A stretch of 64,000 nt of DNA from Syntrophaceae bacterium (GTDB lineage Bacteria; Desulfobacterota; Syntrophia; Syntrophales; PHBD01). Of the stretch, positions 33,380 to 39,547 are shown piece by piece. The position numbers and the translations under genes were made by a program. Every line of letters begins with the position of its first letter. The first letter of the stretch is position 1. Location of the stretch: positions 1 through 64,000 of the forward strand of contig JABLXX010000006.1 of assembly GCA_013177825.1 (NCBI GenBank). The letters are read 5' to 3'. Below the pieces are notes generated by a model. The model saw nothing but the letters and a program-made list of their open reading frames with translations, did no database searches and was not told the origin of the DNA.

Positions 33380-34876
33380 ATGGACATTCGCATAGCAGGC
33401 TACAATGTGGACGCCGAGCTCCTGGAAAGCCTCCGGGAGGCCTTGCCGGAGAAGATGGAGCTGACACCGGAGACCGTTTCGGCGGCCTATGCCCGGATCA
33501 GCCGCAGCCCCAGAACCGTGGGTGAACTGCGGGCCTCGGCCCGCCTGGAAGTGGAAAAGGCCCGCCGGTCGAACCGGTCGATCGTCTTCGACATGGGCCA
33601 CAGCTCCGTTGCCGAGCACGCCGTCTTCAACCTGGACATCACGGGGATCTCCCGGCTCGTGGTGGAAGAGGTGGAGCGCTTCCGGCTTTGCTCCTACATG
33701 GAGAAGTCACAGCGCTATGTCCTGTTCCGGGACGACTTCGTCCGCCCCGAGGAAATCAGCCGGGCAGGGTTGTTGGAGCCTTACGTGGACACGATCCGCG
33801 CCCAGCAGAAGCTCTACGCTGAATTGTACGAAGCGCTCCGGCCCCTCATCTTCGAGCGCCATGCCGACCTGGCCGCGGAAGGGAAAAACCGGTCCCTCCT
33901 GGAGGGGTGGGCCAAAGAGGATGCCCGGTACGTCATCGCCCTGGCCACGGAGACACAGCTCGGCCTGACCGCCAACGCCCGGAACCTGGAACTCATGATC
34001 CGGCGCCTTGCCGCGTCTCCCCTGGCGGAGGCGGCCGACTGCAGCCGGCGCATCCTGGAAGCCGTCCGACCGGTCGCCCCCTCCCTGATCCGCTATACCG
34101 AAGCCACGGAATACGACCGGCTGACCCGGGAAGAGCTCCGGCGGGAGGGGGACGTTCTGGCCGACGGAAACACCGGGAAAGGTATACCCCGCGCAAGAAC
34201 GCGGGAAGTCTCCCTGGTCCACGCCACGCCCGATGCGGACGGACAGACGGTGGCGGCCCTCCTGTTTGCCTCGACCCGCTGGCCCCTGGTCCGTTGCATC
34301 GAGGAAGCGGACCGAATGGGGCCGGACGGCCGGAAGGAATGGATCCGCAAAGCCCTTTACCGCATGCAGTCCCATGACGCGGCCCTTCGGGAATTCGAGT
34401 TTCCGGAGCTGGTTTTCGATCTGGTCGTGAGCGCCTCCTGCTTTGCGCAACTGAAGAGGCACCGCATGGCCACGCTGATCGCCCAGGATTACGATCCTTC
34501 GCTGGGAGTAACGATTCCCCGGGCGATCCGCGAGGCGGGAATGGAGGAACGGTTTCTGGAAGTCATGCGGCAGACGGAGAAAACCTACTTCAGGATCCGG
34601 AAAGCGGCGCCCGCCGCCGCCCCCTACATCCTGACCAATGCCCACCGGCGGAGGGTTTGCCTGAAGCTGAACGCCCGGGAGCTGTACCACCTGGCCCGCA
34701 TGCGCTCCGACGGACACGCCCAGTGGGACATCCGGAACATAAGCGACGGGATGCTGGCGCTGGCCCGGAAGATAATGCCCCTGACCATGATGCTGGCTGC
34801 AGGCAAGGACGATTTCTCCAGGACCTGCGAAAAGACCTTCGGCAAGTCCGGGGGTGAAGGAAAGCGGAAAAAATGA
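33380..34876 (+). CDS. Tandem ThyX-fold (flavin-dependent thymidylate synthase-like) protein
   Basis: 498 residues made of two ThyX-like domains (about 1-240 and 245-490). The first shows GHSSVAEHAVFNLDITGISRLVVEEVERFRLCSYMEKSQRY, where the usual RHR is changed to RFR. The second keeps FAQLKRHRMATLIAQDYD and the C-terminal LNARELYHLARMRSDGHAQWDIR. Canonical ThyX, which makes dTMP from dUMP using FAD and methylene-tetrahydrofolate, is a single ~220-residue domain. The double form may be a non-canonical thymidylate synthase or have another flavin role. The start is the first in-frame ATG; ribosome site weak. The stop overlaps the next gene. Confidence 0.85.
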   Translation: MDIRIAGYNVDAELLESLREALPEKMELTPETVSAAYARISRSPRTVGELRASARLEVEKARRSNRSIVFDMGHSSVAEHAVFNLDITGISRLVVEEVERFRLCSYMEKSQRYVLFRDDFVRPEEISRAGLLEPYVDTIRAQQKLYAELYEALRPLIFERHADLAAEGKNRSLLEGWAKEDARYVIALATETQLGLTANARNLELMIRRLAASPLAEAADCSRRILEAVRPVAPSLIRYTEATEYDRLTREELRREGDVLADGNTGKGIPRARTREVSLVHATPDADGQTVAALLFASTRWPLVRCIEEADRMGPDGRKEWIRKALYRMQSHDAALREFEFPELVFDLVVSASCFAQLKRHRMATLIAQDYDPSLGVTIPRAIREAGMEERFLEVMRQTEKTYFRIRKAAPAAAPYILTNAHRRRVCLKLNARELYHLARMRSDGHAQWDIRNISDGMLALARKIMPLTMMLAAGKDDFSRTCEKTFGKSGGEGKRKK

Positions 34877-35082
34877 CCGGGACCGACGTTGTCTGCTCCG
34901 TATGCAGGCAGGCAGATTTTTTCGTCTCCTGCATCGACTGCCGCGTTCCCCTCTGTGAAGGCTGTGCCTGCTTCGAGCTGCTCGCGGAAGGGTGCGGCAC
35001 GGTGGTGCCTGCCTATTTCTGTCCGAAATGCGCCGTCGATCCCCTGGTCAATCCGAATGCCGCTTTTCGAGATGATTTCTGA
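34873..35082 (+). CDS. Small cysteine-rich zinc-finger protein
   Basis: 69 residues with paired cysteines in several CxxC-like units: CSVC, CIDC, CEGCAC and CPKC, plus a Cys in AEGCGTV. This spacing suggests one or two B-box or zinc-ribbon-like knuckles. The start codon overlaps the ThyX-like stop by four bases (ATGA), implying translational coupling. That overlap is the main reason for treating such a short frame as real. No family was recognised; a partner or accessory of the upstream protein is plausible. Confidence 0.7.
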   Translation: MTGTDVVCSVCRQADFFVSCIDCRVPLCEGCACFELLAEGCGTVVPAYFCPKCAVDPLVNPNAAFRDDF

Positions 35083-35290: not shown

Positions 35291-38200
35291 ATGAAATCTC
35301 TCGGTATCTGCATCGGCGCATCGACTCTATCCGCTGTGGAACTCCTGCCATCTGACGGTGGCGGCTTCCGGGAAGGCCTTGTGGTAAACAGCGCCCACGC
35401 GGGAAATCCGCGGGAGGCCGTTCGGGCGATTCTCGACCGGTACCGGACCGGCGAAGACTGCCGGGTGGCCGTGACGGGCCGCAAGTTCCGGGGGCTCCTG
35501 AACCTGTCGTCGATCTCGGAGCCGGAGGCGGTCGAACAGGCCGTCCGCGTCTCGGTTCAGGGAAACGGGTCCTTCGATGCCGTCGTCAGCGCCGGCGGCG
35601 AGACCTTCATGGTCTATCGCATCGACGGGAACGGGCGGATCTGCGGCATCAACACGGGCAACAAGTGCGCCTCCGGGACGGGGGAATTCTTCCTCCAGCA
35701 GATCCGGAGGCTCGGGCTCAGCCTTCCGGAGGCGCTGCCCCTGGCCCGGACGGGCGATCCTTACCGGGTCTCCGGCCGCTGCAGCGTCTTCTGCAAGAGC
35801 GACTGCACCCACGCCGCCAACAAGGGCATCCCCAAGGGCAGGATCACCGCGGGGCTCTGCCAGATGATGGCGGGCAAGATCCTGGAGCTGCTCCGGCAGA
35901 CGGCCCGGGAAAACATCCTCCTGGTGGGCGGCGTCTCCCGGAACGAAGTGCTCCTGGAAATCCTGCGCCGGGAGATCCGGAATGTCGTTGTCCCCCCGCA
36001 GGCCGCCTGGTTCGAGGCCTGGGGAGCCGCCCTCTGGGCCCTGGAAAACGACGCGACCCCGCTGCCTGAAGCCGGCTCCCTGTTCCGGCCGGAGCACCGG
36101 TCTTTCCACTACCTGCCTCCCCTGGCCGACTCCGAAGCCAGGGTGTCTTTTCAGAATAATGGAACGGAGAGCGCGCCGGTGGGTGGCGAGGCGATCCTCG
36201 GCCTCGACGTCGGCTCGACCACCACCAAGGCCGTGATCATGCAGATCGCCGACAGCCGGATCCTGGCCTCGGTGTATCTCCGGACCGGTGGCGACCCGGT
36301 TGCGGCCTGCCGCGCCTGCTACGCCGAACTCGCCCGGCAGATGGACGGGCAGGGGACTCCCGTCCGGATCACGGGCCTCGGCGTCACGGGCTCGGGCCGC
36401 CAGATCGCTGCGCTCCATGCCGGAACGAGCGGCATCGTCAACGAGATCATCGCCCACGCCACCGCCGCCCGTTACTTCGACCCGGACGTGGACACTCTCT
36501 TCGAAATCGGCGGCCAGGACGCCAAATACACGCATCTCGTCAACGGCGTTCCCATGGACTACGCCATGAACGACGCTTGCAGCGCCGGAACGGGATCGTT
36601 CCTGGAGGAGGCGGCCCTGGAAACGCTGGGCGTCGCCATGGAGGACATCGGCCCCCTGGCCCTGGAGGGGAGCCGCCCTCCCAATTTCAATGACCAGTGC
36701 GCCGCTTTCATCTCGAGCGACATCAAGAACGCCCTCCATGAAGGCATCGGCCAAAAGGACATCCTGGCCGGGCTCGTCTACTCGATCGCCATGAACTACA
36801 ACGTGCGGGTCAAGGGAAACCGGCCCGTCGGCAGGCGCGTCTTCATGCAGGGCGGCGTCTGCTACAACCGGGCCGTACCGATGGCCATGGCGGCACTCGC
36901 GGGCAGAGACATCGTGGTCCCCCCGGAGCCGGGCCTCATGGGGGCCTTCGGCGTCGCCCTGGAGGTGGTGGACCGTCAGCGCCGAGGACTCCTGGAGCCG
37001 GAGGAGTACATCCTGGAAGACCTGCGGGACCGCGACTTCTCCCACGAAGCCTCCTTCGTCTGCAAGGGGGGCGCCCGGGAAAAATGCGACCGGAAATGCG
37101 AGATCTCCCGGGTCCGAATCGGCGGCAAGGTGTTTCCGTTCGGCGGAGCCTGCAACCGCTGGTACAACCTGCGGATCCACCGCGACACCGAGGACACGCC
37201 GAATCTGGCCGCGGTCTATGAAAGCCGGATCCATCCTGCGTCCGCCCTTGCGGCGGAGAAGACGGCGGGGACGCACACCGTCGGTCTCAACCGGTCTTTC
37301 CACGTCCACGCCTGCGCACCCCTCTTCCGAACCTTTTTCCGCCGCCTCGGCTTCGATCCGATCCTGCCGGAGAAACCCGAGCCGGACGGGATGGAGGCCC
37401 GGGGAGCAGCCTTCTGCTACCCCGCGGAGCTGGCCCACGGCTTCTTCCTCGACCTCCTCAACCGGGAGCCCGACTTCCTGTTCCTGCCCCACGTGCGGGA
37501 CCTGCCGGCACAGCCGGGGGCGCCCCGGAGTACCACCTGTCCCGTCACGCAGGCGGAGCCCTATGTCCTGGCGACGGCCTTCGGGGAGCACCCCGTCTTC
37601 CGCCGCCTGCAGTCGGAAAAGCGGATCCTTTCGCCACTCCTGGATTTCACAGGCGGATGGGGAGGGGCGGAAGAGGCCTTCGTTCAGATCGGCAGGGATC
37701 TCGGAGCCACGGCCCGGAAAAGCCGTTTTGCCTTCCGGGAGGCCCAGGAGGAGCAGCGGAGAACGACGGAGGAACTCCTCGCGGAGGGACGGAAATTTCT
37801 GGAAGAACTGGAAGGGCGGCCGGACCGGTTCGCCGTGGTTCTCCTGGGCCGCGCATACAACACCTGTGTTCCCGAGGCCCACCTCAGCATCCCTCAGAAG
37901 TTCGCCACCCGAGGCATTCCCGTCATTCCCTGCGGGATGCTGCCTCCGGGCGAATTCCCGCCGGATCCCGGCATGTACTGGGCCGCCGGCCAGACGATCC
38001 TGCAGGCGGCACGGAAGATCCGGGAGCATCCCCAGCTCTTCGGCTGTTACATCATGAACTTTTCCTGTGGTCCTGACTCTTTTCTCCTCGGGGACGCACG
38101 CCGCATCATGGGTCGCAAGCCCTTCCTCGTTCTGGAGCTGGACAGCCATACGGCCGACGCGGGCCTTGAGACACGCATCGAGGCGTTTCTCGACATCATC

Positions 38201-39547
38201 ACCAACTTTCGGAGCGCCAAGGAGGACCCGCCCCGGTGCCCTGCCACCGCAACGCAGCCGGCCCGCTGGGACGAAGCACGCAGGTCGTTCGTCGATTCCA
38301 GAGGATGCCCCCGAAGCCTCATGGATGAATCGGTCCGCGTCGTCTTCCCGTCCATGGGCCGCTTTCTCTCTGAGGCGGGGGCCTCGGTCTTCCGGGGCCT
38401 GGGCATCCGTGCCGAGGCCATGCCCCCGGCCGACATGGAGATTCTCCAGCTCGGGCGGGGGGAAACGACCTGCAAGGAGTGCCTCCCCCTCCTCCTGACA
38501 ACGGGAACGCTTCTCAAGACCGTCCGGGAACGTCCCTCGGCGGAAGAGCTCCTGGTCTATTTCATGCCCACCACCGGCGGCCCCTGCCGGTTCGGCCGCT
38601 ACGCCCCTTTCATGAAAGACCTCATCCGCGGGCAGGGCTGGGAAAACGTAGCCATCCTCTCGCTGACCTCGGAAGACAGCTACACGGGTCTCAGGGAGAG
38701 CGGCGCCTTCCAGCGCCTCTGGCTCGGCGCCGTGACCGCAGACATCATCCAGGACGTCTACTCGGTCCTTCTGTCGGATGCCTATGACCGGGAGCTTGCG
38801 CTCGGCATCTTCGAGGCTGAATGGCAGCGGATCCTGCTCGCCCTGGAGCGGATGAAAGACGAGACGGACGTCCGTGAGGCGCTGGCAGGAGCGGCAGAAC
38901 GACTGGGCCGGATCTCCCTGAAGCGGCCTGTCCCGGACATCCCCGTGATCTTCCTGACGGGAGAGATCTTCGTCCGCCACGACGACCTGTCACGGCAGTT
39001 TCTGGTGGAGCGGCTGGCGGAAGAGGGATACGCCGCGAAGGTGGCCAGCGGCATGGAGTGGGTGTACTACACGGACTGGTGCCTGCGGCAGGGCATCGGC
39101 AAGGAGCGTCCGGACCTGCGCGGCCGCCTTGCCCGCGCCATCCGTGGGGCCGTCATGAAGAGGGGGGAACGGTCGCTCAAGGAAGTCATGGCGCGTTCAG
39201 GACTTTACGCTTCCCACGAGGAAGACGTCGGGACCGCCATCGAGTGCGCCCGGCCCTACCTGGATCCCCGACTGACGGGTGAGGCGGTTCTCACCATCGG
39301 CGGCTGCCTGCACGAAGTTCCCTCGCGGGCCTGCGGGGCCATCGCCATCGGCCCCTTCGGCTGCATGCCGAACCGCATCGCCGAGGCCATCCTGTCCCGC
39401 CGGATGCATCCGCTCCCGTTCCTGGCCATCGAGAGCGACGGCACCCCCTTCCCCCAGCTCATTGCCGCCCGGCTGGAGGCCTTCCTCCTGCAGGCCCGGC
39501 GGGTCCACCAGGAGCGGAGCCCCGGACGGAGAGAACCAGCCCCTTGA
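35291..39547 (+). CDS. Giant acyl-CoA dehydratase activase (double BcrA/BadF-type ATPase fused to HgdB-like domain)
   Basis: 1418 residues. Two ASKHA ATPase domains (about 1-270 and 302-570) each carry the two cysteines expected for a bridging [4Fe-4S] cluster: CASGTGEFF (~126) and CSVFCKSDC (~164); CSAGTGSFL (~429) and CAAF (~470). The second has the clean phosphate loop GLDVGSTTTKAV. A middle region with CDRKCEISR and a C-terminal region resembling 2-hydroxyacyl-CoA dehydratase D components (GGPCRFGRYAPF, GCLHEVPSRACGAIAIGPFGC) follow. Family knowledge: ATP-driven low-potential electron transfer to dehydratases or benzoyl-CoA-type reductases. The actual partner is unknown. The end overlaps the convergent methyltransferase gene. 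Confidence 0.92.
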   Translation: MKSLGICIGASTLSAVELLPSDGGGFREGLVVNSAHAGNPREAVRAILDRYRTGEDCRVAVTGRKFRGLLNLSSISEPEAVEQAVRVSVQGNGSFDAVVSAGGETFMVYRIDGNGRICGINTGNKCASGTGEFFLQQIRRLGLSLPEALPLARTGDPYRVSGRCSVFCKSDCTHAANKGIPKGRITAGLCQMMAGKILELLRQTARENILLVGGVSRNEVLLEILRREIRNVVVPPQAAWFEAWGAALWALENDATPLPEAGSLFRPEHRSFHYLPPLADSEARVSFQNNGTESAPVGGEAILGLDVGSTTTKAVIMQIADSRILASVYLRTGGDPVAACRACYAELARQMDGQGTPVRITGLGVTGSGRQIAALHAGTSGIVNEIIAHATAARYFDPDVDTLFEIGGQDAKYTHLVNGVPMDYAMNDACSAGTGSFLEEAALETLGVAMEDIGPLALEGSRPPNFNDQCAAFISSDIKNALHEGIGQKDILAGLVYSIAMNYNVRVKGNRPVGRRVFMQGGVCYNRAVPMAMAALAGRDIVVPPEPGLMGAFGVALEVVDRQRRGLLEPEEYILEDLRDRDFSHEASFVCKGGAREKCDRKCEISRVRIGGKVFPFGGACNRWYNLRIHRDTEDTPNLAAVYESRIHPASALAAEKTAGTHTVGLNRSFHVHACAPLFRTFFRRLGFDPILPEKPEPDGMEARGAAFCYPAELAHGFFLDLLNREPDFLFLPHVRDLPAQPGAPRSTTCPVTQAEPYVLATAFGEHPVFRRLQSEKRILSPLLDFTGGWGGAEEAFVQIGRDLGATARKSRFAFREAQEEQRRTTEELLAEGRKFLEELEGRPDRFAVVLLGRAYNTCVPEAHLSIPQKFATRGIPVIPCGMLPPGEFPPDPGMYWAAGQTILQAARKIREHPQLFGCYIMNFSCGPDSFLLGDARRIMGRKPFLVLELDSHTADAGLETRIEAFLDIITNFRSAKEDPPRCPATATQPARWDEARRSFVDSRGCPRSLMDESVRVVFPSMGRFLSEAGASVFRGLGIRAEAMPPADMEILQLGRGETTCKECLPLLLTTGTLLKTVRERPSAEELLVYFMPTTGGPCRFGRYAPFMKDLIRGQGWENVAILSLTSEDSYTGLRESGAFQRLWLGAVTADIIQDVYSVLLSDAYDRELALGIFEAEWQRILLALERMKDETDVREALAGAAERLGRISLKRPVPDIPVIFLTGEIFVRHDDLSRQFLVERLAEEGYAAKVASGMEWVYYTDWCLRQGIGKERPDLRGRLARAIRGAVMKRGERSLKEVMARSGLYASHEEDVGTAIECARPYLDPRLTGEAVLTIGGCLHEVPSRACGAIAIGPFGCMPNRIAEAILSRRMHPLPFLAIESDGTPFPQLIAARLEAFLLQARRVHQERSPGRREPAP

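Follow-up and report, generated by a model that had tools for sequence, protein, structure and literature searches.

ThyX, a target for antibacterials, is a symmetric tetramer with active sites that extend across its subunits, so that single sites are not changeable one at a time. Its motif is RHR-x7-S, and chlamydial ThyX may be long. In the known enzymes (e.g. Thermotoga maritima TM0449 and Mycobacterium tuberculosis ThyX), the tetramer is assembled from one-domain chains with the active site between monomers, and in a viral ThyX structure Ser-88 is supplied by monomer B, and Gln-75 and Arg-182 by monomer A (available sections of PMC3498832). According to the accessible portions of two further papers, H53 is placed on a third monomer (PMC11940539), and R174 has a role in dUMP activation, with S88 and Y91 possibly taking part in the methylene step (PMC8316439); no subunit assignment was found in the accessible portion of PMC4901301. 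The UMP/dUMP methylase PolB of polyoxin biosynthesis also has a ThyX fold and holds dUMP between two monomers with an identical split of residues. The dUMP phosphate is contacted by Phe79, Arg82 and His83 of one monomer and by Ser96′, Ala97′, Arg98′ and Arg166′ of its neighbour; Glu94′ and Arg86 hold the ribose, and Arg193 the pyrimidine (PMC5003785, in the part of the text available). We equated these contacts by alignment spacing with Tm S88, R90, R147, E86, R78 and R174, and all residue equivalences between the published structures and the protein described here are likewise our own, made by alignment and motif spacing.

The window analysed here, a 64,000-nucleotide stretch from a Syntrophaceae bacterium, encodes a ThyX of a different architecture. 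It resembles the known enzymes in the fold of each half, in its Thy1 domains and, taking the chain overall, in the scored dUMP half-site residues, whereas the half-sites themselves are divided between two fused domains. It differs likewise from PolB, which has a single domain, acts naturally on UMP and belongs to an antibiotic pathway. We consider it a flavin-dependent thymidylate synthase that arose through a single ancient fusion of two copies of thyX, after which the halves specialised to form composite sites, and place the probability of this reading at roughly 0.87.

Domain architecture and predicted fold

The fused pair of ThyX-like domains put forward in the original prediction is confirmed by a 498-aa ORF with two Pfam Thy1 (PF02511) stretches above the cut-off of 24.8 bits (213.9 bits, E 2.2e-63 for the whole protein), and each domain also exceeds this cut-off when scored apart in the genome search (Table 1). 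The protein lies above the curated cut-off of NCBIfam TIGR02170 as well (129.7 versus 87.9 bits). The whole chain, predicted as a monomer, gave a mean pLDDT of 83.6 and a pTM of 0.83, with residues 11-80 poorly predicted (block means 49-58). The C half of this model (residues 273-481) matches T. maritima ThyX 5chp with a VIA Z of 17.6 over 192 residues (rmsd 2.5), and the N half, predicted alone (pLDDT 77.0, pTM 0.69), matches M. tuberculosis ThyX 3gwc with a VIA Z of 15.7 over 207 residues (rmsd 3.7). The structural matches also include the atypical Corynebacterium glutamicum ThyX (3fnn, 3ge9), which shares the ThyX fold and is dispensable for thymidylate according to its PDB title, whereas no ThyA was found in the present genome. 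Fold matches outside the ThyX-type proteins (Z of at most 6.0) were set aside.

Table 1. Coordinates of the double-ThyX gene, its functional segments and the adjoining small gene in the window
Feature	Position	Strand	Basis
Double-domain ThyX gene, 498 aa	33380..34876	+	ORF and Thy1 profile matches
N half, residues 1-257, predicted ThyX fold	33380..34150	+	predicted half model; Thy1 120.4 bits
C half, residues 273-488, predicted ThyX fold	34196..34843	+	predicted whole-chain model; Thy1 96 bits
N-half substrate-recognition loop E108-K-S110-Q-R112-Y113 (Tm E86, S88, R90, Y91)	33701..33718	+	alignment
N-half R183 (Tm R147)	33926..33928	+	alignment
C-half R360-H361-R362 (Tm R78-H79-R80)	34457..34465	+	sole full RHR of this protein
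C-half NARELYHLARMR, residues 431-442, last residue R442 (Tm R174)	34670..34705	+	sequence, alignment
ATGA overlap, thyX stop / small-gene start	34873..34876	+	sequence; also in related species
69-aa Cys-rich B-box-like zinc-finger gene	34873..35082	+	neighbour of thyX

Division of the half-sites between the two domains

Both halves of 93 double proteins were aligned with 34 single ThyX proteins. The double set comprises the window protein, the best 80 of at least 537 relatives, five viral loci and seven plasmid or phage proteins (L161 was left out), and the single set comprises the 30 best-scoring loci of the phylum Thy1 search together with L001, L072, L162 and L164. Half-site B was defined as E/Q86, S88, R90 and R147, where Q at position 86 was admitted after the columns had been inspected, and half-site A was scored as R78, H79 and R174. 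Half-site B is complete in 93/93 N halves and 0/93 C halves, and half-site A in 0/93 N halves and 93/93 C halves, counts that are not independent, given that one related type accounts for 81 of the 93 sequences. Both half-sites are complete in 34/34 single ThyX proteins, a mostly best-scoring set that is biased towards canonical ThyX. The deep spread of the double form rests on the 12 viral, phage and plasmid members and on L161.

At individual positions (n = 93 for each half), E86, R90, Y91 and R147 are each present in 93 N halves and no C half, S88 in 93 N halves and one C half, and H53 in 90 N halves and no C half. For H79 the corresponding numbers are 2 and 93, for Q75 they are 2 and 88, and for R78 they are 14 (the window protein among them) and 93; R80 and R174 are each found in 89 N halves and 93 C halves. 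Thus, the C half lacks the whole of half-site B and the N half lacks only part of half-site A, mainly Q75 and H79, and the part that it retains would still permit N-N contacts. The set of 25 double proteins used for the trees, which includes L161, has S88, R90, Y91 and R147 in 25/25 N halves; among its C halves, S88 occurs once and the other three not at all.

In the window protein, the motifs are as originally predicted: RFR stands at residues 100-102 in the N half, and the C half carries RHR (360-362) and NARELYHLARMR (431-442). The N-half equivalent of R174 is R209 as aligned, beside a one-residue gap. The N half is without the His of RHR, yet retains the Ser-x-Arg-Tyr substrate loop, which is gone from the C half, a feature absent from the original prediction. 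A contiguous RHR-x7-S is accordingly absent from either domain (RFR...S110 in the N half, RHR...D370 in the C half) and is whole only across both halves, and we therefore file the protein as a two-domain derivative and not as a classical ThyX. Exceptions to the pattern are L035 and L036, which retain the N-half His, and L036, the C half of which also retains the Ser. The very divergent double ThyX of a faecal phage (L161, MT835736.1) has its motifs split alike.

The stretch that substitutes for the lost loop in the C half (residues 363-378, window 34466-34513) is itself well conserved, with conserved positions around Q369, Y371, P373, G376 and T378, and hints at a kept role.

The 93/93 complementary half-sites and the published subunit assignments together bear out, at the level of sequence, the proposal that active sites may be built from both halves; as each copy retains a different half-site, the halves probably must work together.

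Origin and selection

In a 65-row tree that includes phage and plasmid proteins, the halves of 25 double proteins separate into an N clade (99/92) and a C clade (99/97), each with 25 rows. These clades persist on removal of four motif stretches (99/86 for N, 97/96 for C), and on removal of both the motif stretches and the long rows L160 and L161 (100/99 for each); when included, the long-branched halves of L161 group with the N and C clades. The separation of N and C halves, even in trees built without the motif columns, favours one old fusion. In the best trees the two kinds of half are not sisters, the N clade joining single ThyX with long branches in play. A grouping of N and C halves against the singles is seen in 0% of bootstrap trees, and a constraint that groups all halves is not rejected (p-AU 0.296). 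We therefore claim one fusion and not one duplication; the fused copies may have arisen by duplication of a single gene or by the joining of two thyX genes.

A comparison of the window gene with that of HGW-19 gives a dN/dS of 0.20 across thyX, with the N half at 0.07 and the C half at 0.32, and the small Cys-rich gene stands at 0.22 for the same two species; both genes thus look to be maintained. The faster C half and the presence of a single-domain ThyX (L001) on contig C3 (59677-60252) are what would be expected had the halves decayed under relaxed selection while the single enzyme does the work, but this is very improbable. The single thyX lies near genes for a Mu Gam-like end-protection protein and a late transcription activator, neighbours that make it most likely prophage-borne, and of the places listed only G135 holds another such ThyX (L072, 73% identical over 225 aligned positions). 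Moreover, the sister species G086 has just the two Thy1 matches of the double gene, and dN/dS is below 1 in both halves. Chance or plain decay of the halves was rejected on the 93/93 pattern and the selection estimate.

A search of the genome for a further thyA or thyX, suggested with the original prediction, thus yields this single-domain ThyX and no ThyA. A single thyX elsewhere and an unconserved gene pair had been named there as grounds against the proposal, and both are formally seen; the assignment as a thymidylate-forming enzyme stands nonetheless, since the single thyX sits among Mu-like prophage genes and the double gene is the lineage-conserved one.

Distribution of the double architecture

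A match to the double-ThyX protein is present in 133 of 149 sampled genomes of the host class. Thy1 occurs in 138/155 class genomes (88/92 good ones), most of which have exactly two matches, as a double gene yields; no Thy1 match was obtained in the other 17/155 (4/92 good ones), which include the genome with a thyA fragment (G152). Across the phylum, Thy1 is found in 251/395 genomes, mostly as one match. A scan of named genomes confirmed at least 537 relatives, and the titles of the best 80 of these are mostly Syntrophaceae, Smithella, Syntrophus, Syntrophales and unplaced Deltaproteobacteria, with some Aminicenantes, Omnitrophota, Elusimicrobiota and Auribacterota; these names suggest that the host class is GTDB Syntrophia. 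The nearest among the matches listed is from HGW-Deltaproteobacteria-19 (93% identical). Viral contigs contain five double-ThyX loci, and matches extend to 26 plasmid and 49 phage records, of which 10 and 2, respectively, cover no less than 80% of the query.

Among the annotated double records examined, the product is named FAD-dependent thymidylate synthase or thymidylate synthase, so databases already contain the double architecture. Partial listings of the openly licensed literature yielded no paper on a ThyX of two domains, and none is described in the available portions of PMC5954106, PMC9931769 and PMC7824862. The protein is thus a widespread, automatically annotated ThyX variant, and no description of its clean active-site split was found among the openly licensed papers listed.

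Thymidylate supply in the host class

ThyA was detected in 1/155 class genomes, by a partial match in G152, which is less clean and gave no Thy1 match, and in 0/92 good ones; DHFR was found in 0/155, and thymidine kinase in 3/155 with weak scores, of which 2 exceed the cut-off and none belongs to this genus. ThyX is used by most of the bacteria in which no DHFR can be recognised (PMC1971073, available text). With ThyA and thymidine kinase nearly absent, the double ThyX is the evident source of dTMP, and from genomic context it is probably the main one in the host class, a large syntrophic group. This supports the original prediction of a variant thymidylate-forming enzyme.

Neighbouring genes were scanned at two levels. 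For seven genes of distant members, picked partly by annotation, three are nucleotide genes: a dCMP deaminase gene directly upstream of the double thyX (L160), a dCTP deaminase gene near it (L156) and a thymidylate kinase gene two ORFs upstream (L153). The other four are a SET-domain gene, an AAA ATPase gene and two without a match. At the loci of the best 80 relatives and the viral contigs (85 loci, 76 parsed), one upstream family, a putative glutamate racemase, recurs at 26 loci, and no nucleotide genes were seen in the printed recurring neighbour clusters of the 76 parsed loci. On one contig of the viral collection (L036), a SET-domain gene (2595-2996) lies immediately upstream of the double ThyX.

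A substrate or product other than dUMP/dTMP, in the manner of PolB, might be envisaged, with the enzyme modifying nucleotides or nucleic acid; PolB is among the structural matches of the predicted models, and UMP is its natural substrate even though dUMP binds tighter (PMC5003785, part of the text). We regard this as improbable: it would leave a class almost devoid of ThyA, DHFR and thymidine kinase without an evident source of dTMP, the dUMP half-sites are kept, and dCTP deaminase, dCMP deaminase or thymidylate kinase genes lie near three distant members. Nothing pointing to the nucleic-acid modification role raised in the original prediction was found, and that role was rejected on the points just given.

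Proposed assembly and its two kinds of site

For the composite thymidylate synthase, the N half would provide the dUMP-holding loop and arginine (E108, S110, R112, Y113 and R183), and the C half would provide the flavin-side RHR, Q357 and the uracil-activating arginine R442, so that an active site would arise at the contact between an N half and a C half. A pair of chains could then form a ThyX-like four-domain assembly with two dTMP-forming sites, whereas the remaining two sites would be unable to bind dUMP in the usual way. We infer that the protein synthesises dTMP as a dimer of double chains with two working sites. The replacement of the lost C-half loop by another well-conserved stretch raises the possibility, which we advance only tentatively, that the two sites without dUMP binding are now regulatory or flavin-handling, giving two catalytic and two control sites per assembly. 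With each half-site fixed to one domain, the protein would constitute a natural asymmetric ThyX in which each contribution is mutable alone, and which would show directly if two sites suffice; the fused form is also carried by phages and large plasmids.

The small Cys-rich gene

As originally predicted, a 69-residue Cys-rich ORF begins in the stop codon of thyX, its ATG overlapping the TGA as ATGA; this overlap is present in 2/2 species of the genus compared. The small protein is like B-box and zf-HIT zinc fingers in its Cys-pair spacing and weak Pfam matches, whereas it and its scanned relatives score under the curated cut-offs (18.6 bits against 24.7 for zf-HIT; best match of four relatives 23.1 against 27). 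Its family is Cys-rich and B-box-like, comprises two paralogue types (L043-L070) and occurs in 66/155 class genomes.

The overlap, and the location of a family member less than 5 kb away from thyX in three further genomes (G071, G097 and G028), could suggest that enzyme and zinc-finger protein constitute a single conserved system in which the finger would regulate or escort the enzyme. The wider placement of the family makes such a system hardly probable. Direct adjacency of the small gene to thyX is confined to this genus (2/2 genomes), whereas the family is on a different contig from thyX in 54/66 genomes, at 33 to 49 kb in 3 and in genomes without a double-thyX match in 4/66, as judged from a combined reading of two match lists in which fragmented genomes could hide some links. 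Around 28 other double thyX loci (L006-L033), one weak family match was obtained (L021, E 0.52), and family members are often in tandem pairs with varied neighbours. The two-gene system of the original prediction was rejected on these points, and the small gene appears to be a local neighbour or bystander outside the mechanism of the fused thymidylate synthase.

Local gene setting

A scan for promoters and terminators returned nothing useful. Upstream of the double thyX, on the opposite strand, lies an enoyl-CoA hydratase gene. Downstream, after the small gene, the window encodes a 1418-aa acyl-CoA dehydratase activase (35291-39547) with BcrAD_BadFG and DUF2229 domains.
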